Below, one piece after another: positions 47,432-64,000 of a stretch of DNA of 64,000 bases (its first letter is position 1; every line of letters starts with the position of its first letter). Position numbers and translations under genes: made by a program. The notes under the pieces were generated by a model. That model made no database searches. It was not told the DNA's origin and saw only the letters and a list, made by a program, of their open reading frames with translations. The stretch comes from Leptolyngbya sp. NIES-3755 (GTDB lineage: Bacteria; Cyanobacteriota; Cyanobacteriia; Leptolyngbyales; Leptolyngbyaceae): contig AP017308.1 of assembly GCA_001548435.1 (NCBI GenBank), positions 877,030-941,029 of the forward strand. Reading direction: 5' to 3'.

Positions 47432-48844
47432 TCACGCCTCCACTTCTAAAAGCTCTGTTGGGTAGGCAATACACGAAAGAACATATCCCGCTTGTTGATC
47501 AGAGATCGATAAGACACTCGGAGCGGTTTGATAGCGAACTTTCCCTTTGCGAACTTTTACTTTACACATTCCACAAGCGCCCGCCCGACACGCATAACGA
47601 ATCTGAACGCCCTCCTGTTCTGCTGCCTCTAAGATTGGAGTTGTACTATCCGTTAACGCTTGTCGATCGGACTCAGTGAAGTAAAGAACAAGTGCTTCAT
47701 CGGTTGGCAAAGATGAAACTAATGTTGTCCCATTTTGACTTGCGAACTGCTCTTTCGGTGCTGAACTCCCAAAGCTTTCTTCCCAATACTGTTGCATTGG
47801 AAATTCCATGCTGTCGAGAACGGTCCGAATATTTTGCATGAATGGTTCAGAGCCGCAGACATACACCGATCGATCAAGCAAATCTGGAACAATCCAGGAC
47901 AACATTGATCGAGTAATTCGCCCCGTTAATCCCATCCAATACTGATGAGAACGAGTCACTGTGATCGCTAGATGTAAGTTCGGCATTTGTGCTGCGATCG
48001 ATTCTAGTTCTCGACGGAAGATGATGTCTTCTGGAGTCGTCGCACTGTGAAGAAAAACAATGTCACACTCGGTTAAAGTATCTTGCAGCCAGCGCAACAT
48101 CGACATCATTGGCGTAATTCCACTCCCCGCAGACATTAAGAGCAACTTTGGTGGAACATTGGGGACACAGGTAAATTGTCCCATTGCACCACCGAGTAGT
48201 TTAATGCGATCGCCAATCTTGAGATGATCATGCAACCAGTTAGACACTAGCCCGGTCGGAACACGCTTTACCGTGATGCTGAGATGATAAGGGCGCGTGG
48301 GTGAAGAGGAAATCGAATAAGGACGAATCACTGTTCGACCCTCGATTTCGAGTTCAACATTCACGAATTGACCTGGAAGATAGCAAAATTGGACAGCAGG
48401 TTCAGCAACAAAGCAGAATGTTTTTACGTCTGAAGTTTCATCAACGATGCGACAACAACGACAGAGAAGATCCTCATTTTGCCAGGATTGTACGGGAAGG
48501 GAAGGCTCGATCGAGGATTTAGCCAGCGGAGACAATGCTTCGACGTGCAAAAATGTTGCTCCAATTTGAAGCAAATCACCGACTTGAAGTTGGCGCGGTT
48601 CTTCTGGAGGAATATTTTCACCATTTAGAACTGATCCCGATGCACTTCCCACATCAATAAAATAGTAGGAACTCTCACGATAGATAATTCGTCCATGAAC
48701 TCGGCTAATCTCTGGACTTGCCAGCACCAAATCACAGGTCGTATGTCGTCCAATCATCCATTCGGTTTGTTCTAGCTCAGACTGTTCAAGCTGATGAATC
48801 TGAAACTCTCGTTGCTCAAAATTAACTGACTTTAGCGTCAACAT
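47432..48844 (-). CDS. FHA-domain flavin reductase with C-terminal 2Fe-2S ferredoxin
   Basis: 470 residues combining three domains: an FHA domain (about 1-100; MIGRHTTCDLVLASPEISRVHGRI, ..GSVLNGENI), a ferredoxin-NAD(P) reductase unit with RPYSISSSP (FAD) and AGSGITPMMSML (nucleotide), and a plant-type 2Fe-2S ferredoxin with Cys ligands in CRAGACGMC and a later Cys (VLSCIAYP). The last two resemble NADH:hybrid-cluster protein reductases. FHA domains bind phosphothreonine peptides. It is the third gene of an operon with a WD40 kinase and a membrane polyferredoxin, suggesting that phosphorylation recruits this reductase. Confidence 0.93.
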   Translation of the reverse strand: MLTLKSVNFEQREFQIHQLEQSELEQTEWMIGRHTTCDLVLASPEISRVHGRIIYRESSYYFIDVGSASGSVLNGENIPPEEPRQLQVGDLLQIGATFLHVEALSPLAKSSIEPSLPVQSWQNEDLLCRCCRIVDETSDVKTFCFVAEPAVQFCYLPGQFVNVELEIEGRTVIRPYSISSSPTRPYHLSITVKRVPTGLVSNWLHDHLKIGDRIKLLGGAMGQFTCVPNVPPKLLLMSAGSGITPMMSMLRWLQDTLTECDIVFLHSATTPEDIIFRRELESIAAQMPNLHLAITVTRSHQYWMGLTGRITRSMLSWIVPDLLDRSVYVCGSEPFMQNIRTVLDSMEFPMQQYWEESFGSSAPKEQFASQNGTTLVSSLPTDEALVLYFTESDRQALTDSTTPILEAAEQEGVQIRYACRAGACGMCKVKVRKGKVRYQTAPSVLSISDQQAGYVLSCIAYPTELLEVEA

Positions 48845-48869
48845 GGGAAGTTACCTCGGACCCGTAAGA

Positions 48870-50555
48870 TCAGGCATTGAATCGGTTAGGCGATTTCGGG
48901 ATCAGTCTTGCGACAGTGGTAGCAGTATGGAGATCTGAAGCATTTGCTTGTGCAACAGATAAGAGTTCTGGAAAATTAAGCGCGATCGCTTCAATCGTCG
49001 AGAAATGCTCAGTGTCCGTAATCTGAAGTTCTTGGCGCAGTTGACGGCAAAATTCAAAGCTCCCAGAAGCACTCACCGCTTGTTGTCGAAGAAGATCCAG
49101 CACGACATCACTGTAGGTTTGTAGTCGAACTTGTTGAGAAACGCCTTGTAGAACTTTGACCAGCATGTAGATTTCGTCTGGCGTTAAATCGTCGATCGAG
49201 CGTCCTTCGAGTAACTTCTGATCGATCGGTAATTTCTGAAGCTGTTTTCGCAAACTCATTGCCATGTTTTCACGCTCATATTGCGATCGAGTCCGGCGCA
49301 AGGTGCGATAGAGCCAAAGTGAACCGACGAGAACAATCAACGCATTGAACGCTAACAATGGATAAGTCGGTAAGCGATTGAGCGAAGGACGTGCACCATA
49401 GGAAAAGAATGTCCAAAATGATGCGATCGTAAAGATAGTAAATGCGAAATGTTGCGCCTGCTCTTTAGAAACTCTAGCTCCAGGAAGTCTACGGCAAAGT
49501 CTTTCCAGAATTACGCCTAGAGTGAACGTCATTCCAATTAAAACAACGAAGGTCATGAAGACGGCAACTGCTTTCGGAATTGGGATTGCATGATGATAGA
49601 GATAGAAGCCTGTGTCTAGTACTTTTGCAACTTGATCTGCTTCGTGTGTCCATGCACCTGTGAAGTAATAATCCCAGTTACCCGCATACAAAAAATAATA
49701 TAAGTAGAAGGCAATCACCATTCCCAAGTAGCCGTACTGTACAAGTCTTCGACCCGGTTTCGCTAACTCTGTCCAATAGCTCTTTTCAGCATCAATATCA
49801 ATGCAAGCTGCTTTACAACCGACACAAGCACTTTGCTCTTGATGCGTTTCTGAATTGATTGTGCGGCACATCGATTGAGTTGCGGTTGCAGTGGGTCTGA
49901 GATAGTTCTGGCTCCCAAACAGCGATCGAGGTCCGGTGTAAACCATCTGTACTGGAGCCATCGGACAGAAATATTGACACCAGCTTTTACCTGCATAGAG
50001 ATAACCGACCAAGATGGCACAGGCGATCGTCAGTAAAAGAAAGCTACCAAGAGCAGTGCGATCAGAGTTTACATATAGAATTCGTAGCCACAGCCCAAAC
50101 ACAAATAAACTGAATTGAACATAGAGATGATTGCGACCGAGCCAAGATTGTTCGCTGATTGTGACCACTTCGCGACGGACTTCTCCAGTTGTTCGATCGA
50201 CAATTTTGCGTCGTCGCTGAATCCCAAGAGCGCGGGGAATCTGTGATAGAAACGATAATGGACAAATTCTTCGCCAAAATTCATGACCCAACACTAGCAA
50301 AATAAAGATGCCACAAGGAACAATCATTGCCCACCAAATCAAAGCACTCATCGAGAACGAAGCTTGGGGTAAGCAAGTTTCTCGTAGCTTGATGCACTGA
50401 TGCAAATTCACATGGAAGGGACTCGTTAAGTTACTTGGATCAGTAAATGCAGGAGTCATCGGATCATAAAAGAGCGATGCAATCAACAAAAGCCAGCCGA
50501 GCGTTAATAGCAATCGAACTCGGTGCATCATTTTTTCAGGGACTTTGTGCAGCAT
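48870..50555 (-). CDS. Membrane 4Fe-4S polyferredoxin (NosR/CcoG-like)
   Basis: 561 residues from the ATG at 50555 (AAGGA upstream). Five to seven membrane helices are seen, with cluster-binding motifs CPLSFLSQIP, SWCQYFCPMAP and ACVGCKAACIDID between helices, as in NosR/RdxA/CcoG-type electron-transfer proteins. A soluble helical tail of about 140 residues is added at the C-terminus. It probably moves electrons across or along the membrane. Spacing of 32 bases to the kinase gene and 25 bases to the FHA-reductase gene indicates one operon. Confidence 0.88.
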   Translation of the reverse strand: MLHKVPEKMMHRVRLLLTLGWLLLIASLFYDPMTPAFTDPSNLTSPFHVNLHQCIKLRETCLPQASFSMSALIWWAMIVPCGIFILLVLGHEFWRRICPLSFLSQIPRALGIQRRRKIVDRTTGEVRREVVTISEQSWLGRNHLYVQFSLFVFGLWLRILYVNSDRTALGSFLLLTIACAILVGYLYAGKSWCQYFCPMAPVQMVYTGPRSLFGSQNYLRPTATATQSMCRTINSETHQEQSACVGCKAACIDIDAEKSYWTELAKPGRRLVQYGYLGMVIAFYLYYFLYAGNWDYYFTGAWTHEADQVAKVLDTGFYLYHHAIPIPKAVAVFMTFVVLIGMTFTLGVILERLCRRLPGARVSKEQAQHFAFTIFTIASFWTFFSYGARPSLNRLPTYPLLAFNALIVLVGSLWLYRTLRRTRSQYERENMAMSLRKQLQKLPIDQKLLEGRSIDDLTPDEIYMLVKVLQGVSQQVRLQTYSDVVLDLLRQQAVSASGSFEFCRQLRQELQITDTEHFSTIEAIALNFPELLSVAQANASDLHTATTVARLIPKSPNRFNA

Positions 50556-50587
50556 AAATTCTTCCTTTTGTGCGGAGCGATGTGGAA

Positions 50588-52468
50588 TTAATGAATTTCG
50601 CGATCGTGAATTTGCCAAAAGCGTAAGGGTTGATTCACGTTCCAACTGATCAGATAGTCATGATTGGGGCTGAACGCAATATTTTTGGGATTGTCTAGCT
50701 TGCCTGTTTCTTGCATCACAAGCTTGCCCTCTTTCGGAATCCAAGCTCGAATACTCCCATCACTGTGGACGGTCATAATATTGCGCTTGCATTTCGAGAC
50801 CATGATGGAGTTTGCAGAGGCTTCAGGCAAAACTTGAGCAATGGTTTCTCGTTTGAGATCCCACATCAAACCCCGGTCTTTTCCAAAGCTAACCAACGTA
50901 TGAGCGTTGACAATTTCTAGTCCAACAATGTCGTCGGTATGCCCAGAGAAGGTTCGCTCAATCTGTCCATTGCGGAGATTCCAAACTTGAAGTTGGCGAT
51001 CGCGACTCGCAGTAATCAGTCTCTCAGAGCTGGGTGGATAAGCGATCGCGGTGATATGTGAAGTAGGAGTATTGAGAGTTCTGAGCAATGCACCTGTTTG
51101 TAAATTCCACTGGCGCATGGTGTTGTCTTTACTACTACTGGTCAATATTTTGAGATCCGGACTAATTGCGATCGCAAGTACAGATTTTTGATGTCCTCTA
51201 AATTCTTGAACTAATCGACCTTGATTGATATCCCAAAGCTGAAGTGTACCATCTCCACGACCACTGACTAAAAATTTACTATTTGAACTAACGGCTAGAG
51301 TGGTAATCGGCATTTTGCCACTTGCTAAGGTTGCTAACTGTTTACCCGCTGGCAGCGACCACAATCGAAGTAAATGATCAGTTCCTACACTAACCATGAC
51401 TCGCTTGTTTGGAGTAATCAGTAATCGCTCGATTCTCGGTTTGATTGAAAGTTCTCGCAACATCGTTAAATGATTGTCTGATGCTGGAAAAAACTGTTGC
51501 TCAAGTTGCTCGATCGTCGGTTTGAACGCTTGATCGTAGCTCTGCTGTAATTTAGGAAATTGTGAAACCAAGGTTCCAGCAAACAGCATCGTACTGATGG
51601 GGAAAAGCGTTCGTTGCAAGCGTGACCAATTCGGGGAATGCGATCGATCTGATGTTTGCCATTGTTCAAGATCAGCGAGAACTTCAGATGCTTGCTGATA
51701 GCGATCGCTGGCTCGACTTCGCACCATTCGATCGAGAATTTGCACTAAATTTGGTGGAATTGACACAGACTTTAGATATTGCTTCCAGTCTAGTTCTCCA
51801 GTAATCAAGTCCTGTTTGAACTGGCGGGGATCAGTGCGGGTGAGCAGATGAATCACTAAGATCCCGAAAGCATACAGATCACTATTAATCTGTGGCATTC
51901 CTAAACATTGTTCATCTGGAATATAGCCTGGAGTTCCAATCAGCAAGGGAGGATTCGCAGACGGATTTTTCTGAATTTCAGAACAGGCTGCACCAAAATC
52001 AATCAATACAATCTTGTTATCCTGCCGCCGACAGATCAGATTGCTGGGTGTGACATCACAGTGAATGATGCCATGCGAATGAACATAGTCCAACACGGGC
52101 AGCACATTTGACAGAAGCTCGATCGCTTTCTTGGCAGTCATCGATTGATTCAACCAAGTACACAACGTTTCGCCCTCAATATATTCTTGCACTAGATAAG
52201 TCGAATCTTGCTCCTGAGCATACGCGAACAGCATCGGAATCTGAGCATAATTTTGCCCAAGCTGTCCGAGTAGCTGTGCTTCTGTTTCAAACAAGTGACG
52301 GGCAGTTTCTAGCGAGATCTTGCTGTGTGGGGGTAGCCTCAGCCGTTTCACCACACATAAAGGATGTTGTGGAAGATATTTGTCACGAGCTAAATAAGTC
52401 TCGCTGAATCCACCCGCACCTAGTTTCTCTAGAATGAGGTAGCGCCCGGTTAGGAGTTGCCCAATCAT
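50588..52468 (-). CDS. Serine/threonine kinase with WD40 repeats
   Basis: 626 residues from the ATG at 52468. The N-terminal kinase has glycine loop LGAGGFSETYLA, Lys in CVVKRL, IIHCDVTPSN (HCD in place of HRD, so a non-RD kinase) and LIDFGAAC. A membrane-like helix (FPISTMLFAGTLVSQF, about 290) follows, then at least five WD40 repeats (for example GDGTLQLWDI; SKDNTMRQWNL; SRDRQLQVWNL). Hanks kinases with WD40 tails are common in cyanobacteria, but not beside redox proteins. It is the first gene of the operon. Confidence 0.93.
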   Translation of the reverse strand: MIGQLLTGRYLILEKLGAGGFSETYLARDKYLPQHPLCVVKRLRLPPHSKISLETARHLFETEAQLLGQLGQNYAQIPMLFAYAQEQDSTYLVQEYIEGETLCTWLNQSMTAKKAIELLSNVLPVLDYVHSHGIIHCDVTPSNLICRRQDNKIVLIDFGAACSEIQKNPSANPPLLIGTPGYIPDEQCLGMPQINSDLYAFGILVIHLLTRTDPRQFKQDLITGELDWKQYLKSVSIPPNLVQILDRMVRSRASDRYQQASEVLADLEQWQTSDRSHSPNWSRLQRTLFPISTMLFAGTLVSQFPKLQQSYDQAFKPTIEQLEQQFFPASDNHLTMLRELSIKPRIERLLITPNKRVMVSVGTDHLLRLWSLPAGKQLATLASGKMPITTLAVSSNSKFLVSGRGDGTLQLWDINQGRLVQEFRGHQKSVLAIAISPDLKILTSSSKDNTMRQWNLQTGALLRTLNTPTSHITAIAYPPSSERLITASRDRQLQVWNLRNGQIERTFSGHTDDIVGLEIVNAHTLVSFGKDRGLMWDLKRETIAQVLPEASANSIMVSKCKRNIMTVHSDGSIRAWIPKEGKLVMQETGKLDNPKNIAFSPNHDYLISWNVNQPLRFWQIHDREIH

Positions 52469-53181: not shown

Positions 53182-54690
53182 ATGATTTCACCATTCTGGA
53201 AAACTCCCGAACTTCAGTCTTATAAACTGACAGAGTTCTTAGAACGATCGCTAAAGCCAATCTGTGTGTACAACGATCGAGGACATCGAATCTACACCAG
53301 TCGCAGTTTTTTGGCACTGTTAAAAACACATGCGAAACAAGTCAATTTCTTTGATTGTTTTCCGTCCGCTATGCGATCGAAGTTGGCGAATCTTTGGCAA
53401 CGAGCTTCGCAAGGAGAAATCGTCCAATTTACCTCACAGATTAAAGACGTAGATGAGGCAGTAGAATGTTCCCTAGAATTTGATGAGAATTCTAAATTGA
53501 TGTTTTTTACGGTTGTGAAAACAGATGCTCGTAATCTTACTGAGGCTTACGAGAAAGCAATTTTACAATCGGCTCACGCGAATTTGGCAACGGCTCTCAT
53601 TCAAGCAAACGGAAATGTGATTCAGTGTAATGAGAATTTACACGCTTGGTTAGGGACAAATGATCAGGAAACGATTAATCTTGATCAATTTGTACATCCT
53701 GAAGATTCTTTTCTCGATCAGCAACTCAAACAGAATTTACTCGATCGGGTCATTAGTTCTTATACGATCGAGAAGAGATTCATCACGAAAAATAGCGGGA
53801 TCGTTTGGCTGAATTTGAACATTTCAGTGATCGAATTGCCGACCGATGAACACCCGTATTTTGCTGTAATTCTTGAAGATATTACTGAGAATAAAAAAAT
53901 TTACAGCACTCTTGTAAGAACCGAAGAAAAGTGGAAAACGCTTTTCCTAAACAGTCCCTACTTATTCATCCAAGCCAGCAATAGTGGACAAATTATCTAT
54001 ATTAGTCCCGCAGTTGAATCGATTTTGGGATATCAGCCTGAAGAATTACTCGGTCGGCAGATTAGAGAATTGATTCATCCGAGTAATTTGAACGAAATTG
54101 ATCTCGTATTGCAATTGTGGAGCCAAAATGTTCCAACCAGTCCGACCGGGATTGAATGGTGGTGGAGATCAAAAGCAAATCGATGGGTTGCTCTAGCGAT
54201 TCAAGGTCAGAGATTTCCCTCATCTTTAGCGATCGATGGAGTCATGCTAAGCGGACACAATATCACTGATCGTAAAGCATTAGAGATTGAATTAAGAGAT
54301 CACGAAGAGAAGTTTCGATCGCTAATTGTTAACAGTATGGGCGCGGTATTTCGATGCGATGCTAGTTATATGATGCAATTTATTAGCGATCGGATTCAGT
54401 TGATTACGGGTTATCCGCCTTCAGTTTTTATTCATAATCAAATTCGTTCCTATCTCAGCATCGTTCACCCAGACGATATTCCCATTCTTAAGAACTCATT
54501 GATGCAGGTCATCTTTGATCGACATCCTCATTCGATCGAGTACCGAATTATTGATGCGAATGGCGAAATTCGTTGGGTGACTGAACGGAAGCAGGGAATT
54601 TTTAATCAAAATGGGAATCTTCTCTGTTTGGATGGACTGCTGTTAGAAATGAGCGATCGCGAACCGATTAGAGCAGAACTAACCAATTGA
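53182..54690 (+). CDS. Multi-PAS protein without output domain
   Basis: 502 residues with three clear PAS domains (about 130-240, 255-365, 380-490; e.g. FQASNSGQIIYISPAVESILGYQPEELLG) and one weak PAS-like start (about 20-110). No kinase, GGDEF, EAL or HTH domain follows; the protein stops shortly after the last PAS. It may act as a sensor adaptor or be a remnant of a larger kinase. A good terminator follows. Confidence 0.8.
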   Translation: MISPFWKTPELQSYKLTEFLERSLKPICVYNDRGHRIYTSRSFLALLKTHAKQVNFFDCFPSAMRSKLANLWQRASQGEIVQFTSQIKDVDEAVECSLEFDENSKLMFFTVVKTDARNLTEAYEKAILQSAHANLATALIQANGNVIQCNENLHAWLGTNDQETINLDQFVHPEDSFLDQQLKQNLLDRVISSYTIEKRFITKNSGIVWLNLNISVIELPTDEHPYFAVILEDITENKKIYSTLVRTEEKWKTLFLNSPYLFIQASNSGQIIYISPAVESILGYQPEELLGRQIRELIHPSNLNEIDLVLQLWSQNVPTSPTGIEWWWRSKANRWVALAIQGQRFPSSLAIDGVMLSGHNITDRKALEIELRDHEEKFRSLIVNSMGAVFRCDASYMMQFISDRIQLITGYPPSVFIHNQIRSYLSIVHPDDIPILKNSLMQVIFDRHPHSIEYRIIDANGEIRWVTERKQGIFNQNGNLLCLDGLLLEMSDREPIRAELTN

Positions 54691-54745: not shown

Positions 54746-54960
54746 GTGTGTGAATTGAGACTGTAGATGTTTCGAATTCTCATCACCTCTTCATAAATCA
54801 TGCCCCTTCTTTTTCCAATCTTTTATCGAATACCGTCTTGACTTAGAAAGCTTTAGGATAAAATAAGCCTATTGCAAACACAGTCGTTTGTGATGTAAGC
54901 AATCCACTGCTTACCGTTTGAAAGTTCCCTGATGTTTTGCCCCAACTATTTGCCATAACT

Positions 54961-56292
54961 ATGAGTCGTGAAGTTCCCGAAGCGGACATTGAAGAGCGGC
55001 TGATGAAAGCAACAATGAATTCAGAAGTTGATGCGGCGATCGAGGAACTTCTTCAGCCTGACCCAGGAGATTCGACCTCTGAAAGCGACAATCAAACGGT
55101 TCTACTCAATCGTGCAGCGCAACTCTCTTCTAAAGCAAAAGTCGCTCTCATTCGCAAACTGATTACCCAGCTTGAACCGGATAACATTCAATCGATCGTT
55201 GAGTTTGGACTAAAAGAAATTGGCAGTCGGCATCGATCAGGAAATACCGCGATCGAACATAATACTCGCCTCCTCCTCAAGAAAGATTATAGTTACCAAT
55301 CGCGTGGATTAAGCGAGCCGACTCAGTATTTTGTTTATCTGAGACGACGCAAACCAAAGCTCGATCGATACATTGGCGCATTGTTCCACGTGCCTCAAGG
55401 TTGTACCCTGTCTTACTTTCTTGATACAGAAGAGCGTCTGATTTTCAATCCGCCACACAATGTTTTTGAACTGCGAGACAGTAAGAATTCCGACTTGTTG
55501 CGAATCGTGCGCTTGATTTGTCTAGAGCCACCTCCGCCAGACTATACCTTCGATAAGCAGCAGAATGATACTCCAAACATTCAACTGCATCTGGAATATC
55601 TCAATCCCCAAACGTATCAACCGATTTCTAAACAGAGCTATCCGTTTCCGAAGTGCATGTATGAAGGCGGGGAGCTAGACCGATATCGCTGGGAAGTCAG
55701 CACGATCGAGCTTGCTCCAGAACAGTCTATTTCGCCTCGCAGCACGTTGCCCACTTCGGTGGCTGAACCTTTACCGACGGTAGAAACTTCAACCAAATTC
55801 GATCTGCAATCCGTGTCTTTGCCGGATGAGGCAATTCCATCGGAACCGCAACGTCGCGTTTTAGAAGTGCAACCGAAGCTCATTACCTTTCATCTGACTA
55901 AATCGAGCGATGCAGATGGAATTCTCAAACGAATGCGACTGTGGGTTGCTTGGAGTGAAAAAGCGATGCCACAGTCGCGATGGGAACTCATTCAAGATGC
56001 GGATAGTTTTACGTTGATGAATGCTCGATTTAAGCGACAGATTTTGCGATTTTCGCCCGAATCAGGCTCGATCGTGCTTGAAAACTCACTGCCTGTCTTG
56101 ATGAAATGGTTCCATGATTTGAGTTTGGCAGTGTCTCAGTCGCAAAATCGAAGACAATACAGTGCAACACAATTGAAATTAGCGCATACATTGTTTATTG
56201 AAATGAGTTTGCCTCAGAGCGATCCAGCGATCGTACTTAAGAAACTATTCGGGGTTGACTTTGCGAAACCTGCACCTGATCAAAGTAAATAA
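54961..56292 (+). CDS. Hypothetical protein (443 residues)
   Basis: Start at the ATG at 54961. An acidic helical start is followed by a beta-rich middle and C-terminal parts with Arg/Lys-rich segments (FVYLRRRKPKLDRYIGALFHVPQGCTL). No named family recognised. The codon use is like that of its neighbours. No clear operon: terminators or gaps on both sides. Confidence 0.6.
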   Translation: MSREVPEADIEERLMKATMNSEVDAAIEELLQPDPGDSTSESDNQTVLLNRAAQLSSKAKVALIRKLITQLEPDNIQSIVEFGLKEIGSRHRSGNTAIEHNTRLLLKKDYSYQSRGLSEPTQYFVYLRRRKPKLDRYIGALFHVPQGCTLSYFLDTEERLIFNPPHNVFELRDSKNSDLLRIVRLICLEPPPPDYTFDKQQNDTPNIQLHLEYLNPQTYQPISKQSYPFPKCMYEGGELDRYRWEVSTIELAPEQSISPRSTLPTSVAEPLPTVETSTKFDLQSVSLPDEAIPSEPQRRVLEVQPKLITFHLTKSSDADGILKRMRLWVAWSEKAMPQSRWELIQDADSFTLMNARFKRQILRFSPESGSIVLENSLPVLMKWFHDLSLAVSQSQNRRQYSATQLKLAHTLFIEMSLPQSDPAIVLKKLFGVDFAKPAPDQSK

Positions 56293-57265: not shown

Positions 57266-58153
57266 CTAAACCAAGGTGAAATCGTTCGCTGAGAAAGCAT
57301 TCAGATTCGCCAAGCCAACATCACCTCGCTGATTATTCAGGTTTGCCAGCACACTAATATCGCCACCGTCACTGAGATCTTGGGAGTATACGAACCGAGT
57401 TAAGCCGAGAGTCGAATTGAAGTACACAAAAGCGCCCTCATCGGCTGTGATTTTGTCGTTGTTTGCGATCGCACGAGCCGCCGCGCCCGCTGCCGGGAAC
57501 GGATCAGTTAGCACAATCAGATTGCTGTCGCCTGAAATTTCAGAAGTTTTACCTTTTTGAAACTTCAAGTCATCGAGATTGAGATCGAACTTGCCGAGCG
57601 CGAATTGATCTTCACCGATCGTAAAGTCACCAATAATATCGGGTTTGTTCAACACTTTGATGCCTGTTTGTCCAGCGAGTGCAGGAGTTCCATTCGCAAA
57701 CGCATCTCCGACATAAGCAAATTGATCGCGTCCTGCTCCTCCGGTAAGCGCATCAGTGCCATCATCACCAACCAAGGTATCGTTGCCGTTTTCGCCCAAT
57801 AGCTGATCGTTGCCAGTCCCACCAATCAGCGTATCATCCCCATTAGAGCCAAAGAGTTGATCATCGCCAGCACTGGCAAAAATGCGATCGTTGCCGTCTC
57901 CTCCAAAAATGGCATCATTGCCCTCGGTTCCTCTCAATCGATCGTCTGCCGCAGTGCCACCCATCACATTGAGTACGGGAGCTACGGGTGCAGGGGGCGG
58001 TGAAACGGGAATGGGAGCGGCAACGGGAGCGGGCTGGAGTGGCTCAGCAGCGACGATTGGCTGAGGAGGTGTGATTGGATTGCCTGAGCGATCGTGAAGT
58101 GGAGCACTGAGAGACGCGAGAACGGTTTGCAGACCCGCTTGAGAATTATCCAT
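57266..58153 (-). CDS. RTX-type calcium-binding secreted protein
   Basis: 295 residues. A Pro/Ala-rich N-terminal part is followed by a block of about seven GGxGxDxLx-type nonapeptides (about 65-145; GNDAIFGGDGNDRIFAS; GGTGNDQLLG) that bind calcium and form a beta-roll. The C-terminal DFTIGEDQFAL region is the usual end of such proteins. RTX proteins leave the cell by type I secretion, and the divergent operon beginning at 58957 encodes an ABC exporter and adaptor. No N-terminal signal peptide is seen, as expected. Confidence 0.88.
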   Translation of the reverse strand: MDNSQAGLQTVLASLSAPLHDRSGNPITPPQPIVAAEPLQPAPVAAPIPVSPPPAPVAPVLNVMGGTAADDRLRGTEGNDAIFGGDGNDRIFASAGDDQLFGSNGDDTLIGGTGNDQLLGENGNDTLVGDDGTDALTGGAGRDQFAYVGDAFANGTPALAGQTGIKVLNKPDIIGDFTIGEDQFALGKFDLNLDDLKFQKGKTSEISGDSNLIVLTDPFPAAGAAARAIANNDKITADEGAFVYFNSTLGLTRFVYSQDLSDGGDISVLANLNNQRGDVGLANLNAFSANDFTLV

Positions 58154-58956: not shown

Positions 58957-59724
58957 ATGAGTAACTGTTTGAAAATTGGAAGTCGCTTGTTAGATGGCGA
59001 CCAAATGATTTCTGCATTGGTGCAGTACAAACTTCTAGAACCGCTCGTCGGACATTTATTGTTAGATGAAGTATTCAAAGAAGTTCCCTTGTTGAAGCAA
59101 GAAGTGTTCCATACTCTGACGGGAGGAACAGAGGAAACGATTCCTGATAACTTTGAGCAGTTTGTCACTCAGTGGTGTCAACAGCGAGACATTACTTTAG
59201 AGTATTTTCAAACGGTGATGATGCGCGAGTGGCAACTTCAGAAATTTAAGCAGATTCAGTTTGCAACTCAGGTCGAATCGGAGTTTCTTCGCATGAAACC
59301 GGATCTCGATCAAGTTGAATATTCATTGATTCAGCTTGAGGACTTATCACTCGCTCAGGAGCTTTATTTTCAGCTTCGAGATGATGGGATTGCGTTTACT
59401 GAACTTGCACGAGAACATTCACTCGGCAACGAACGACAATCAGAAGGATGGGTCGGTCCCGTAGCATTTTCTACATTACCGATCGACATTGCCGCATTAT
59501 TTCGCCACCAACGGGCTGGAACCGTTTATCCTCCCGTTCGGATTGGCGATCGAGTTTGGATTGTTCGGCTCGAACGATTGATTGCAGCCCGATTAACTCA
59601 TGCAACTCGGACTCAAGTGATCGAGCGTTTGTACAATCGATGGCTGCAAACACAGATTCAGAAAGTGATGAATACACCAGGCGCGATCGCAGTTCAATCT
59701 GAACCATCATTGGCGATCGCGTAA
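58957..59724 (+). CDS. Parvulin-type peptidyl-prolyl isomerase of a type I secretion operon
   Basis: 255 residues. A helical N-terminal part (SurA/PrsA-like) precedes a PpiC domain (about 135-225) with FTELAREHSLGNERQSEGWVGPV. No signal peptide is seen, so it should act inside the cell or be exported with the substrate. It starts the operon with the ABC exporter (20 bases apart) and the HlyD adaptor, and probably helps fold or hold the RTX substrate. Confidence 0.87.
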   Translation: MSNCLKIGSRLLDGDQMISALVQYKLLEPLVGHLLLDEVFKEVPLLKQEVFHTLTGGTEETIPDNFEQFVTQWCQQRDITLEYFQTVMMREWQLQKFKQIQFATQVESEFLRMKPDLDQVEYSLIQLEDLSLAQELYFQLRDDGIAFTELAREHSLGNERQSEGWVGPVAFSTLPIDIAALFRHQRAGTVYPPVRIGDRVWIVRLERLIAARLTHATRTQVIERLYNRWLQTQIQKVMNTPGAIAVQSEPSLAIA

Positions 59725-59744: not shown

Positions 59745-62693
59745 ATGACACAAAGCGATGAAAGACTACAGACAAGTGTGGCAGAGTTTTTTGAGACTTG
59801 GTTGTTTCGGGATTTGCCACCTAAGATTCAACGCACGATCGCAGCAAAATTACAGTTGTGTTCGTTTCAAGCTGGAGAAGTGATTTATTCTGCTCCAGAA
59901 TTGCCTTCAGCCGTTCATTTTATTGTTCAAGGAGCAGTTCGGATTCTCGGCTCGGTTGAACGCTCAACTTTAACGATCGCTCGAAAAGGAGAAATTGTGG
60001 GTTGGGATAGTTTGCTGCGTCGAGTCGGAGCGGGAGAAGTTCGGGCTGCGATCGATGGGATCGATCGAACTGTGTTCACTTTGGCGCTTCCTGCGGATGA
60101 GTTTGAAGTGCTTGCTTTGAAGTATTTGATGCCTGCTCTGATGCAGAAAGTGAGCGTACTTGAACTCTTCGACACGCTTGTTTTTGCTTTGTCACAGCGA
60201 TCGACTCCTGTGGCAGATTTACCGGAAATTGTGCGGTATATCGAGCAGGAACAATTCGCGATCGCGAAACATTGTACGTTTGAAACCCCGGAAGCATTAC
60301 CAGACGATCGGTTTTGGCTAGTGAGCAGTGGCGAGTTTTTGAATGTTCCGATCGGGACTCGAATCACGAACACAAGAGAACTTCAGCAAAGTCGTCCATC
60401 TCGCTTTCCGATTCGGTTATTGGGCATCGATCGACAGTGTTTAGCACAGCGATCGGAATTGAAAACTGCACCGATCGAGCTTTCTAGAAGCGAAAAATCT
60501 CCTGTTGTAACAGATACGAACTATCCGGTTTGGAAATCTCGATCGCCCGAACCGATCGAAGATATCGTCGCTTGTTTTGGCATGGTTTGTGATCATTTGA
60601 GCATTCCATTTCGACCGGATTCGCTGCGTCGATGGTTAAAACAACAAGCGATCGACAAATATGAGCCGATGGACTTGTATCTGAGAATTGCTCAAGCGGT
60701 GGGGTTGAATGCTCAGATTGTTCGATTCACACCCACTGGCGGCGGGATTAATCGGCTTACAACTCCTGCGCTGGTTCAGTTTGGAGAGATTTTTGCCGTT
60801 CTTTATGATGTGAGTCCAACGACAACCGTACTCGCTTCACCTCGAACGGGACTGTTGAAGTTAACTCCCGATCGATTAGCGGCTCGTTTAACGATCGAAC
60901 CTGCTTCTAAACGGGAAACGGCGATTTGTCGGGCGATAGTTCTCGATCGATTAACGACAACGCCGACTAAGCGATTTGGATTCCACCGATTTTTGCCGAT
61001 GGTGGTTAAGCAGCGGAGCATCTTAGTACAGGTGTTACTTGCTTCAGTTGTAATTCAGCTTCTGAGCTTAGGGAATCCGCTCTTAGTTCAGCAAGTCATT
61101 GACAATGTGATCGTCAGCGCAAATGCAGGAGCAATGCCGACTTTTGGTGCTCTGATGATTGGATTTGCACTGTTAGAAGGTGTTTTAACAATCTTGCGAA
61201 CTCAAATGTTAGTGAGTACAACAAATCGCTTAGATTTGCATCTGGGAGTAGAGATTGTTCGGCATCTTTTACATTTGCCATTGAAATTCTTTGAACAGCG
61301 ATCGGTCGGAGAGTTAGCTTCTCGATTGATTGAATTAGAAAACATTCGTCAATTCATGACCGAGACAGCAATTACAACCGTGATGGATGTTGTATTTTCG
61401 CTGTTTTACATTCTGGTGATGTTCCTTTACAGTGCCCGTTTAACATTCTGTGTTTTGATCACCATTCCGATCGTGATTGTTTCCACCTTGCTGATGTCTA
61501 AAATTCAGCAAAAACTAATTCGACTCAAAGCAGATCAAGGTGCAAAAGTGCAATCTTATATGGTCGAAGTGTTGAGCGGCATTAGTTCAGTCAAATCACA
61601 GCACATGGAAACCTTAGTCGAGGCTACTTGGCGCGATCGATATGTGCAATATCTCACTAGCGGGTTTACGACTTCCAATATCAATACAATCTTTTACTCA
61701 TACAGCAATTTCCTCAATACGATTAGCAGTTTGCTCGTCCTCTGGGTCGGTGCTGAACTTGTTTTACAAGGAGAATTAACGCTGGGTGGCATGATTGCTT
61801 TCCGAATTCTCACCGGCTATGTTACGGGTCCACTGCTGCGACTTGCAAGACTCTGGCATCGATTCCAAGAAACTTCACTCTCAATGGAATTACTGGCTGA
61901 TATTGCAGATGCACCAATCGAGGAAGAACTCGTTCAAGGACAACAGTTTCAGATTCCACCGATTGTGGGACAAGTAGAATACCGCGATGTTTGTTTTGGC
62001 TTCAAACCGGGAACAAGGCAACTCTCAGAGATTTCTCTTTCGATCGAGCCAGGAACATTTGTCGGGATTGTCGGACAGAGCGGATCTGGGAAAAGTACGT
62101 TGATGAAACTGCTACCTCGATTGTATCTACCCGATAGTGGCAACATTACGATCGATCACTATGACGTGAGCAAAGTCGATTTACATTCTTTGCGATCGCA
62201 GATTGGCGTAGTTTCTCAAGATGCCGTTCTGTTTCAAGGAACTATCCGCGATAACATTACTTTGTTTGAACATCTACCGGATGAAGTCGTAATCGAGGCT
62301 GCGAAAGTTGCTGAAGCTCACGATTTTATTATGCAATTACCAGATGGCTATCAAACTCAGATCGGTGAACGAGGATCAGCATTATCTGGAGGACAACGAC
62401 AGCGAATTGCGATCGCTCGTGTGGTCATTCGGAATCCGAGACTCTTGATCTTTGATGAGGCGACCAGTGCTTTGGATTATGAAACAGAACGTCGCGTCTG
62501 TGTGAATTTGATGCGCCGATTTCAGGGTCGAACTTGCTTTTTTATTACACATCGGTTGAATACGATCGCTCATGCGGATTGGATTTTGTTTATGCAGTCT
62601 GGAATCATTGCAGAGCAAGGAACCCACCCGGAATTAATTGCACTTCGGCAACTTTACTATTGCCTCTACACCCAGCAATCACACGAACCTTGA
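59745..62693 (+). CDS. Type I secretion ABC exporter with N-terminal cyclic-nucleotide-binding domain
   Basis: 982 residues, AAGGAGT upstream. Order: a cNMP-binding-like domain (about 15-140; FQAGEVIYSAPELPSAVHFIVQGAVRI), a degenerate C39-peptidase-like domain (about 265-400) without the classic catalytic Cys-Gly, six membrane helices (about 420-690), and an ATPase with Walker A (GQSGSGKST), signature (LSGGQRQRIAIARVV) and Walker B (LLIFDEATSALD). A C39-like domain that does not cut is typical of HlyB-type RTX exporters. The cNMP domain is an unusual addition and may gate export. Good fit to the nearby RTX gene. Confidence 0.93.
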   Translation: MTQSDERLQTSVAEFFETWLFRDLPPKIQRTIAAKLQLCSFQAGEVIYSAPELPSAVHFIVQGAVRILGSVERSTLTIARKGEIVGWDSLLRRVGAGEVRAAIDGIDRTVFTLALPADEFEVLALKYLMPALMQKVSVLELFDTLVFALSQRSTPVADLPEIVRYIEQEQFAIAKHCTFETPEALPDDRFWLVSSGEFLNVPIGTRITNTRELQQSRPSRFPIRLLGIDRQCLAQRSELKTAPIELSRSEKSPVVTDTNYPVWKSRSPEPIEDIVACFGMVCDHLSIPFRPDSLRRWLKQQAIDKYEPMDLYLRIAQAVGLNAQIVRFTPTGGGINRLTTPALVQFGEIFAVLYDVSPTTTVLASPRTGLLKLTPDRLAARLTIEPASKRETAICRAIVLDRLTTTPTKRFGFHRFLPMVVKQRSILVQVLLASVVIQLLSLGNPLLVQQVIDNVIVSANAGAMPTFGALMIGFALLEGVLTILRTQMLVSTTNRLDLHLGVEIVRHLLHLPLKFFEQRSVGELASRLIELENIRQFMTETAITTVMDVVFSLFYILVMFLYSARLTFCVLITIPIVIVSTLLMSKIQQKLIRLKADQGAKVQSYMVEVLSGISSVKSQHMETLVEATWRDRYVQYLTSGFTTSNINTIFYSYSNFLNTISSLLVLWVGAELVLQGELTLGGMIAFRILTGYVTGPLLRLARLWHRFQETSLSMELLADIADAPIEEELVQGQQFQIPPIVGQVEYRDVCFGFKPGTRQLSEISLSIEPGTFVGIVGQSGSGKSTLMKLLPRLYLPDSGNITIDHYDVSKVDLHSLRSQIGVVSQDAVLFQGTIRDNITLFEHLPDEVVIEAAKVAEAHDFIMQLPDGYQTQIGERGSALSGGQRQRIAIARVVIRNPRLLIFDEATSALDYETERRVCVNLMRRFQGRTCFFITHRLNTIAHADWILFMQSGIIAEQGTHPELIALRQLYYCLYTQQSHEP

Positions 62694-62712: not shown

Positions 62713-64000
62713 ATGAAACGACCTCGATTTGTTGCAACATTACGATCGCGCTATCAATCGATGCACGATCAAGTCGAACAGTCGATCGAATCAAAAGCAA
62801 CCGGATTACCCAATGCTGCAAATTGGACAAAGCGACTCACACAAATCATTTTGTTAGGAGTCACGGCTGGAGTCGGTTGGTCAGTTCTGGCGCGAGTCGA
62901 TGTCGTTGTCAACACCAGCGGCAAGCTCGAACCTCAATCCCAATCGCAAATCGTACAGTCGAGGGCTGGAGGAGTCGTCACAGCCGTATTAGTGCGCGAA
63001 GGTGAAACGGTCAAACAAGGACAATTATTGATGCAATTCGATCGCACTGCATTGTTAAATCGACTGCAAGAACTATTAATCCAACGCCAACGATTGGTCA
63101 AAGAAACTGCCGTACTGCGGTTAGCTCAACAAGGAAGATCGATCGCATCTGTGAGCAGTAGCAACATCACGATCTCGCCTGAATTAACCAGCCAGGTTCA
63201 GACTCGATTGTTATTAGTGGCTCAATTATCTGGAAATTCGGGGAGTCTCTCACTTGAGCAACAACAGCGATTCGTTTTATATCAACAGCAATTACGCGAT
63301 CGACAGTCTTTAACCGAGCTACAAGCCTCAAGTCTACAGTCAAAGATCGCAGAAGCCGAAGCCCAAATTCAGCAAACTCAGTTCCAACTCCAACGCGAAC
63401 AAGAACTCTTAGAACGGATTCGTCCTTTAGTCGATCAAGGTGCAATTCCGCGTGTCAATCTGCTACAGCGTGAAGTCTCGATCGGAGATTTGCAAAAACA
63501 ATTAGTTCAGAGCAATCTACAAAAACAACAGATTGAGATTGGTCAAGTCCAAGGCAGAGTCGAAGCAGGGAAAACATTAAATGAAACTCAGCAAGACTTA
63601 CAGAAGCAATTAGCAGAGCTAGATACCAAGTTCGATAGCATCATCAAAGAGAATCAGCGGCAACTGGTCGAAGTCACTGCACAGTTAAATCAGGTTCGAC
63701 TAGATTTGAAAAATCAAGGACTGCGATCGCCTGCGGATGGCGTTATTTTTGAACTTGCATCGAAGCTACCAGGAGCAGTCACACAGCCCGGACAAACCTT
63801 GCTGCAAGTTGTTCCAAATGAGTCTTTGATCGCACGAGTTCAAGTCGCAAATGCGGATATTGCGAATGTTCAGGTTGGGCTGCCGGTAGATATTCGGATT
63901 GATGCTTATCCGTTTACTGAATTTGGACCGATTAAAGGCGTAATTTCTAAGGTGGGTAGTGAAGCGGTTCCAATTAGTCAGCAAGCGCCTCGATCGACCG
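62713..64000 (+). CDS. HlyD-family membrane fusion protein (partial, runs off the window)
   Basis: 429 codons visible, still open at 64000. The ATG at 62713 lies behind GGAGAG. One membrane helix (IILLGVTAGVGWSVLARV, about 45-62) is followed by a biotinyl-lipoyl-like strand (KLEPQSQSQIVQSRAGGVV), a long coiled coil and the returning beta-barrel (PADGVIFELASKLPGAVTQPG). HlyD connects the ABC exporter to the outer-membrane channel. Nineteen bases separate it from the exporter gene, so parvulin, ABC and HlyD form one operon. Confidence 0.93.
   Translation, partial: MKRPRFVATLRSRYQSMHDQVEQSIESKATGLPNAANWTKRLTQIILLGVTAGVGWSVLARVDVVVNTSGKLEPQSQSQIVQSRAGGVVTAVLVREGETVKQGQLLMQFDRTALLNRLQELLIQRQRLVKETAVLRLAQQGRSIASVSSSNITISPELTSQVQTRLLLVAQLSGNSGSLSLEQQQRFVLYQQQLRDRQSLTELQASSLQSKIAEAEAQIQQTQFQLQREQELLERIRPLVDQGAIPRVNLLQREVSIGDLQKQLVQSNLQKQQIEIGQVQGRVEAGKTLNETQQDLQKQLAELDTKFDSIIKENQRQLVEVTAQLNQVRLDLKNQGLRSPADGVIFELASKLPGAVTQPGQTLLQVVPNESLIARVQVANADIANVQVGLPVDIRIDAYPFTEFGPIKGVISKVGSEAVPISQQAPRST

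Follow-up and report, generated by a model that had tools for sequence, protein, structure and literature searches.

Based on gene order, domain content and comparison across genomes, we describe here an operon-like unit in a 64,000-nucleotide stretch of Leptolyngbya sp. NIES-3755 (contig AP017308.1, positions 877,030 to 941,029; the window), in which a kinase with WD40 repeats (KIN), a membrane Fe-S protein (PFD) and a reductase carrying an FHA domain and a 2Fe-2S ferredoxin domain (RED) are encoded by three consecutive genes. Within the host's order this unit is co-inherited and linked with a type I secretion cluster and its RTX/CHRD cargo, and we propose, with a probability of roughly 40%, that it is a phospho-regulated electron-transfer module serving that export system. 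The best relatives of the window belong to Leptolyngbyaceae, and the window is cyanobacterial. The genes of the operon are as follows:

50588..52468, minus strand: kinase-WD40 protein (KIN), 626 amino acids, ATG at 52468, Pfam Pkinase and WD40 domains
48870..50555, minus strand: membrane Fe-S protein (PFD), 561 amino acids, ATG at 50555, Fer4_5 match of 22.8 bits
47432..48844, minus strand: FHA-FAD/NAD(P)-2Fe-2S reductase (RED), 470 amino acids, Pfam FHA, FAD_binding_6, NAD_binding_1 and Fer2 domains

The genes follow one another on the minus strand as KIN, PFD and RED (52468-47432), separated by 32 nt (KIN-PFD) and 25 nt (PFD-RED); a purine-rich, ribosome-site-like motif precedes each of the three ATGs and neither gap holds a terminator-like site. 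The start originally listed for PFD is a TTG that falls within the kinase gene, and the ATG at 50555 was taken instead. An earlier note, made from the letters of the window alone, had placed a Hanks-type kinase with WD40 repeats, a membrane protein and an FHA-reductase-ferredoxin protein in one operon, and the Pfam matches, coordinates and short gaps confirm this. RED is present in 23 of the 42 genomes of the order, and each of the 22 intact loci whose contig extends far enough has the gene order KIN-PFD-RED; outside this set are a single case at a contig end and the broken copies of two genomes (G293 and G300). PFD identity falls as low as 53% across these loci, so that the three genes are kept together well beyond close relatives. 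Chance or close-relative clustering, which the earlier note had named as the finding that would speak against it, is ruled out by this survey together with the recurrence of the genes in other orders: the grouping is far beyond chance.

The neighbouring genes place the operon in a context that is new relative to the earlier note, that of a secretion system. They comprise:

53182..54690, plus strand: PAS-domain gene, divergent from the operon (PAS_3, 1.7e-36)
54937..56292, plus strand: 451-amino-acid protein of unassigned family, no Pfam match, homologues in most order loci
57266..58153, minus strand: RTX protein with calcium-binding repeats, a candidate cargo of type I secretion (HemolysinCabind, 1.7e-29), kept at the same locus
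58957..59724, plus strand: peptidyl-prolyl isomerase of PpiC type, with which the secretion cluster begins (Rotamase 22.7 bits, cut-off 21.7)
59745..62693, plus strand: HlyB-like type I secretion ATP-binding cassette (ABC) transporter with an N-terminal cyclic nucleoside monophosphate (cNMP)-binding domain (ABC_membrane, ABC_tran, cNMP_binding)
62713..64000, plus strand, continuing to about 64176 past the window end: HlyD membrane-fusion protein (TIGR01843)
about 64563-65948, just beyond the window, after HlyD: RTX/CHRD cargo gene

HlyD scores 226 bits against TIGR01843 (cut-off 208.65), and the HlyB-like transporter reaches 612 bits against TIGR01846, below the cut-off of 725. HlyB-type ABC, HlyD and RTX cargo are found together at the locus, with which the RefSeq annotation of Leptolyngbya boryana plasmid pLBX agrees. 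The CHRD match of the window's cargo copy (18.9) is below the Pfam cut-off of 24.1, and RefSeq names its plasmid relatives as CHRD domain proteins. In terms of type I secretion of RTX proteins, PpiC, the cNMP-binding HlyB, HlyD and the RTX/CHRD cargo thus stand at one locus; we know of no type I system that includes a kinase-redox operon as one of its parts. Of the 42 genomes of the order, 21 have both the CHRD cargo and RED and 18 have neither, while 2 have RED alone and 1 has CHRD alone (Fisher 1.3e-8, phylogeny ignored); presence is concordant within genera g1, g126, g128 and g129. The nearest CHRD gene lies 2.6-23 kb away in 19 of the 20 loci where both share a contig.

This linkage is seen in several arrangements: PpiC, HlyB, HlyD, PFD and RED lie in a row in L152, and L272, L285 and L287 have inverted clusters. 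On L. boryana pLBX, CHRD, kinase, PFD and RED form a run on which DUF1822, HlyD, ABC and PpiC genes converge, and on plasmid p1 of L. boryana IU 594 (L291) the CHRD, kinase, PFD, RED and calcium-binding protein genes form a single run. RefSeq annotates the PFD of the L. boryana plasmids as 'hypothetical protein'. ParA/ParB and integrase genes are found a few kb away from the L291 copy, which suggests that the cargo-kinase-redox unit may be mobile. At another locus (L286, G293:C6), RED and a CHRD gene are still present but PFD, the kinase and HlyB/HlyD are either shortened or absent; this looks like joint decay, with sequencing error as an alternative. In the alignment of the CHRD cargo (A4, first row L269:12376-12975), His112, His114, His170 and Glu187 are invariant, a set compatible with a metal site. 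No solved structure related to the CHRD protein was found, and the idea that it is a distant relative of the Nostocales SodC was unsupported (hhalign probability 0.1%).

On the far side of the operon's start, most loci of the order have a homologue of the PAS gene at the corresponding position (45-88% identity). The PAS gene and the 451-amino-acid gene are kept beside the operon and the genes downstream of RED differ from genome to genome, so that this turnover provides an internal control for operon conservation. It is possible that the divergent PAS gene encodes a sensor and that the 451-amino-acid protein is a partner.

In RED, the FHA, FAD, NAD(P) and C-terminal plant-type 2Fe-2S domains (the last with CX4CX2C...C) follow in that order, all above their Pfam cut-offs, and the AlphaFold model has a predicted local distance difference test (pLDDT) score of 85.5. 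The order FAD-NAD-2Fe-2S is common to the Hcr and GbcB reductases, but RED scores below the cut-offs of both models (GbcB 354.6 bits, cut-off 500; Hcr-type PRK10684 215.3, cut-off 383), and it differs from them in having an N-terminal FHA domain and, as partner, a membrane Fe-S protein instead of a hybrid-cluster protein or betaine oxygenase. Among the non-cyanobacterial plasmid matches to RED that were listed, most are annotated as hybrid-cluster NAD(P)-dependent oxidoreductases. A Cupriavidus plasmid match over residues 28-469 was considered as an FHA-reductase outside cyanobacteria and rejected; it is probably a GbcB-type reductase, because betaine-type transport genes adjoin it. The FHA domain (65.6 bits) retains Arg33, Ser47 and His50, which are nearly invariant among relatives; their loss, the second finding that the earlier note had named against its proposal, did not occur.

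PFD is a membrane protein with about 7-8 transmembrane helices, as judged by hydropathy and positive-inside topology prediction. Seven Cys (C98, C193, C197, C230, C244, C247 and C251) are invariant in 55 relatives and all are predicted, by the same approach, to lie on the cytoplasmic side. They form one CX3CP motif (C193-x3-C197-P), a lone C98-P and an atypical four-Cys set (C230-x13-C244-x2-C247-x3-C251); a second CX3CP is absent, the partner position of C98-P being W94, a Trp invariant in 55/55, and there is one four-Cys set where two CX2CX2CX3C clusters would be expected. This grouping therefore gives evidence of no more than one conventional 4Fe-4S site. A further pair, C54 (kept in 53/55) and C61 (51/55), is predicted to be extracytoplasmic and likely forms a disulphide, structural or redox-active. 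Against the NCBIfam CcoG model PFD scores 18.3 bits (cut-off 316.7), over the CX3CP/ferredoxin region, and no fold match was found in the PDB. Of the earlier description as a membrane 4Fe-4S polyferredoxin of NosR/CcoG type, the membrane Fe-S protein thus stands and the polyferredoxin family assignment does not.

KIN matches Pkinase with 100.9 bits (1e-28; cut-off 31.7) and carries C-terminal WD40 repeats (4.8e-32). It keeps the VAIK Lys (K41), the HRD Asp (D138), the loop Asn (N143) and the DFG motif (157-159), and the VVK Lys, HxD Asp and DFG are unchanged across 23 relatives. In a kinase tree, the WD40 kinases of the operon form a single clade with 100/100 support. Kinase-WD40 and CHASE2-kinase architectures have been catalogued in cyanobacteria (PMC2176072); the present kinases are alike in architecture but are tied to a redox pair, and that survey does not mention ferredoxin, 4Fe-4S proteins or operons.

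The PFD family extends far beyond this order, with 396 relatives in a scan of species genomes. In many cyanobacteria PFD carries a C-terminal cNMP-binding domain and lacks an associated RED, and some stand-alone PFDs also have an FHA domain; the source genome itself holds a second PFD copy of the cNMP-binding type (L033:9136-11949), about 47% identical and with no adjoining reductase. In Nostocales and some others, a PFD of about 1100 amino acids has its own FHA and cNMP-binding domains and is adjoined by RED, and a CHASE2-kinase is often encoded 2-4 kb further on, past PFD. Long PFDs with an FHA domain have an adjacent RED in 22 cases and none in 9, and those without FHA have one in 2 cases and none in 23 (Fisher 1.8e-6, phylogeny ignored). 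We considered whether the WD40 kinase and the Nostocales CHASE2 kinase might be orthologues with swapped extra domains, but the tree gives separate clades, the CHASE2 clade sitting with other kinases. Because the CHASE2-kinase is a separate lineage, kinases were recruited to PFD-RED at least twice. In another cyanobacterium PFD and a 2Fe-2S ferredoxin are naturally fused in one protein (L050:8478-10346), which makes it likely that PFD receives its electrons from the 2Fe-2S domain of RED. In Nostoc and Spirirestis (L171, L169 and L162), PFD-RED belongs to a conserved array with a DUF928 protein that has a signal-like N-terminus, a SodC lipoprotein and the CHASE2-kinase. A protein resembling cupins (H-x-H ... 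H, without a Pfam match) also recurs by PFD-RED (L036:12392-12979 and L169:14659-15267; in L165 and L166 it precedes PFD on the upstream side). One contig that bears the label Candidatus Gracilibacteria SU_1_2 (L158) encodes a cyanobacterial-type PFD, 60% identical, and is probably a mis-binned cyanobacterial contig.

Among known systems, the nearest are the NapH-like proteins (NapH, NosR and PceC), electron conduits that have been proposed to move electrons across the membrane (PMC8238504). Like these PF12801 proteins, PFD is a multi-pass membrane Fe-S protein with CX3CP on the cytoplasmic side. However, the NapH/NosR/CcoG set comprises two CX2CX2CX3C clusters and two CX3CP motifs, whereas PFD has one CX3CP and one atypical four-Cys site. 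Unlike NapH-like systems, moreover, the operon has no FMN-binding domain (PFD has no Pfam match to a periplasmic one), has a dedicated NAD(P)H reductase and includes a kinase and an FHA domain; extracytosolic flavinylation is reported to be strikingly rare in Cyanobacteria (PMC8238504). The likeness to CcoG/RdxA/FixG is confined to the weak NCBIfam match of PFD, and no link to oxidase genes was seen here. We file the operon as a NapH-like electron-transfer module and not as a NosR/CcoG/NapH member, because PFD fails the Cys motifs of that group. The earlier statement that no described system of this makeup was known to its author agrees with our search, in which neither the KIN-PFD-RED combination nor a kinase-redox type I system was found in the open literature, most subscription papers lying outside it.

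In the mechanism that we propose, electrons from NAD(P)H would pass through the FAD of RED to its 2Fe-2S domain, then to the Fe-S site of PFD at the cytoplasmic face, and from PFD into or across the membrane, possibly via Cys54/Cys61, to an extracytoplasmic partner. As client, the RTX/CHRD cargo inherited along with the operon would be the leading candidate, or else the redox state that this cargo requires in the envelope. The kinase, with its WD40 platform, would phosphorylate itself, PFD or a partner, and the FHA domain of RED would bind the phosphosite, which would restrict docking of RED on PFD to times at which the signal is on. The first part of this chain, from NAD(P)H through FAD and 2Fe-2S to membrane clusters, had been put forward in the earlier note; the domain order of RED and the L050 fusion argue for it, but its end point needs amending, PFD not being a full polyferredoxin. 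Kinase control through the FHA domain, suggested at the same time, is favoured by the retained FHA Arg, Ser and His, by the second kinase type found near PFD-RED in Nostocales and by the FHA domain of PFD there, and is weakened by residues missing from the FHA domain and the kinase, as detailed below. In a stronger version, electron flow from NAD(P)H to the membrane Fe-S protein would be gated by the Ser/Thr kinase together with FHA docking, and would power extracytoplasmic redox reactions (e.g. reduction of Cys54/Cys61 or of a CHRD-held metal) on behalf of a dedicated type I secretion system. This would amount to a new class of bacterial system; we consider it unlikely.

Several observations weigh against the proposed module. 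The Fer4_5 match of PFD exceeds the curated cut-off of 22 only marginally, its Cys set is reduced, and in its AlphaFold model (pLDDT 78) the Fe-S loop is of low confidence and modelled without metal; the acceptor in the chain is hypothetical. The co-occurrence counts treat genomes as independent, kinship being uncorrected, and the one shared-contig locus outside the 2.6-23 kb range, that of G314, has its cargo gene at a distance of 1.3 Mb. The Nostocales PFD-RED loci have no type I secretion neighbour and instead have SodC, DUF928 and others; the export role may therefore be confined to one branch, and what unites the loci may be the envelope and not type I secretion itself, since those of Nostocales encode exported proteins of another kind. 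As for the kinase, the catalytic loop in the window reads HCDVTPSN, without the HRD Arg and the catalytic-loop Lys, positions that vary in relatives. Two paralogue kinases adjoining the cargo (L122:11684-13588 and L126:4656-6497) have the loop YQDLKLNH, in which the metal-binding Asn is lost, and may be pseudokinases. These loops make catalysis by KIN doubtful enough that we call it plausible, not assured. In canonical FHA domains the TNG-loop Asn contacts phosphopeptides; this position is Ser69 in the window and Asn in 4/35 relatives.

The kinase loops and the variable FHA Asn position would also fit a scaffold, in which the kinase is weak or dead, the WD40 repeats and a phospho-independent FHA serve as assembly domains and there is no phosphorylation control. 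This account, which can be combined with the other readings, is in our view improbable, given the invariant VVK Lys, HxD Asp and DFG and the near-invariant FHA residues. We also find it doubtful that the operon is a redox sensor, in which the PFD Fe-S site and RED would set or read the NAD(P)H/quinone state and the kinase, together with the PAS gene, would convert it into phosphorylation acting on expression of the secretion cluster or on the cNMP-binding ABC transporter. The conserved divergent PAS gene and the WD40 and CHASE2 kinases adjoining PFD-RED are in keeping with such a role, as are the stand-alone PFDs of the phylum, most of which end in a cNMP-binding domain and some of which also have FHA, a signal-input-like makeup; but a complete FAD-NAD-2Fe-2S reductase fits sustained electron flow better, and the operon lacks a DNA-binding output. 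Least likely of the alternatives is a general membrane electron entry, in which RED-PFD would deliver electrons from NAD(P)H to quinone or to an acceptor in the cytosol, the secretion cluster being only a neighbour inherited with it as part of a regional block of genes: PFD homologues occur widely among cyanobacteria with no secretion genes and NapH-like proteins are generic electron conduits (PMC8238504), but the linkage outlasts many rearrangements and a plasmid location, and presence and absence agree within genera.

If the operon is indeed a phospho-regulated electron-transfer module serving type I export, we know of no earlier bacterial example of transmembrane electron transfer gated by a kinase and an FHA domain, nor of any other redox module associated with a type I exporter. 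The operon would also provide a functional lead for a common, uncharacterised family of cyanobacterial membrane Fe-S proteins, with L. boryana, a cultured strain that bears operon, cargo and exporter on a plasmid, as a test bed.

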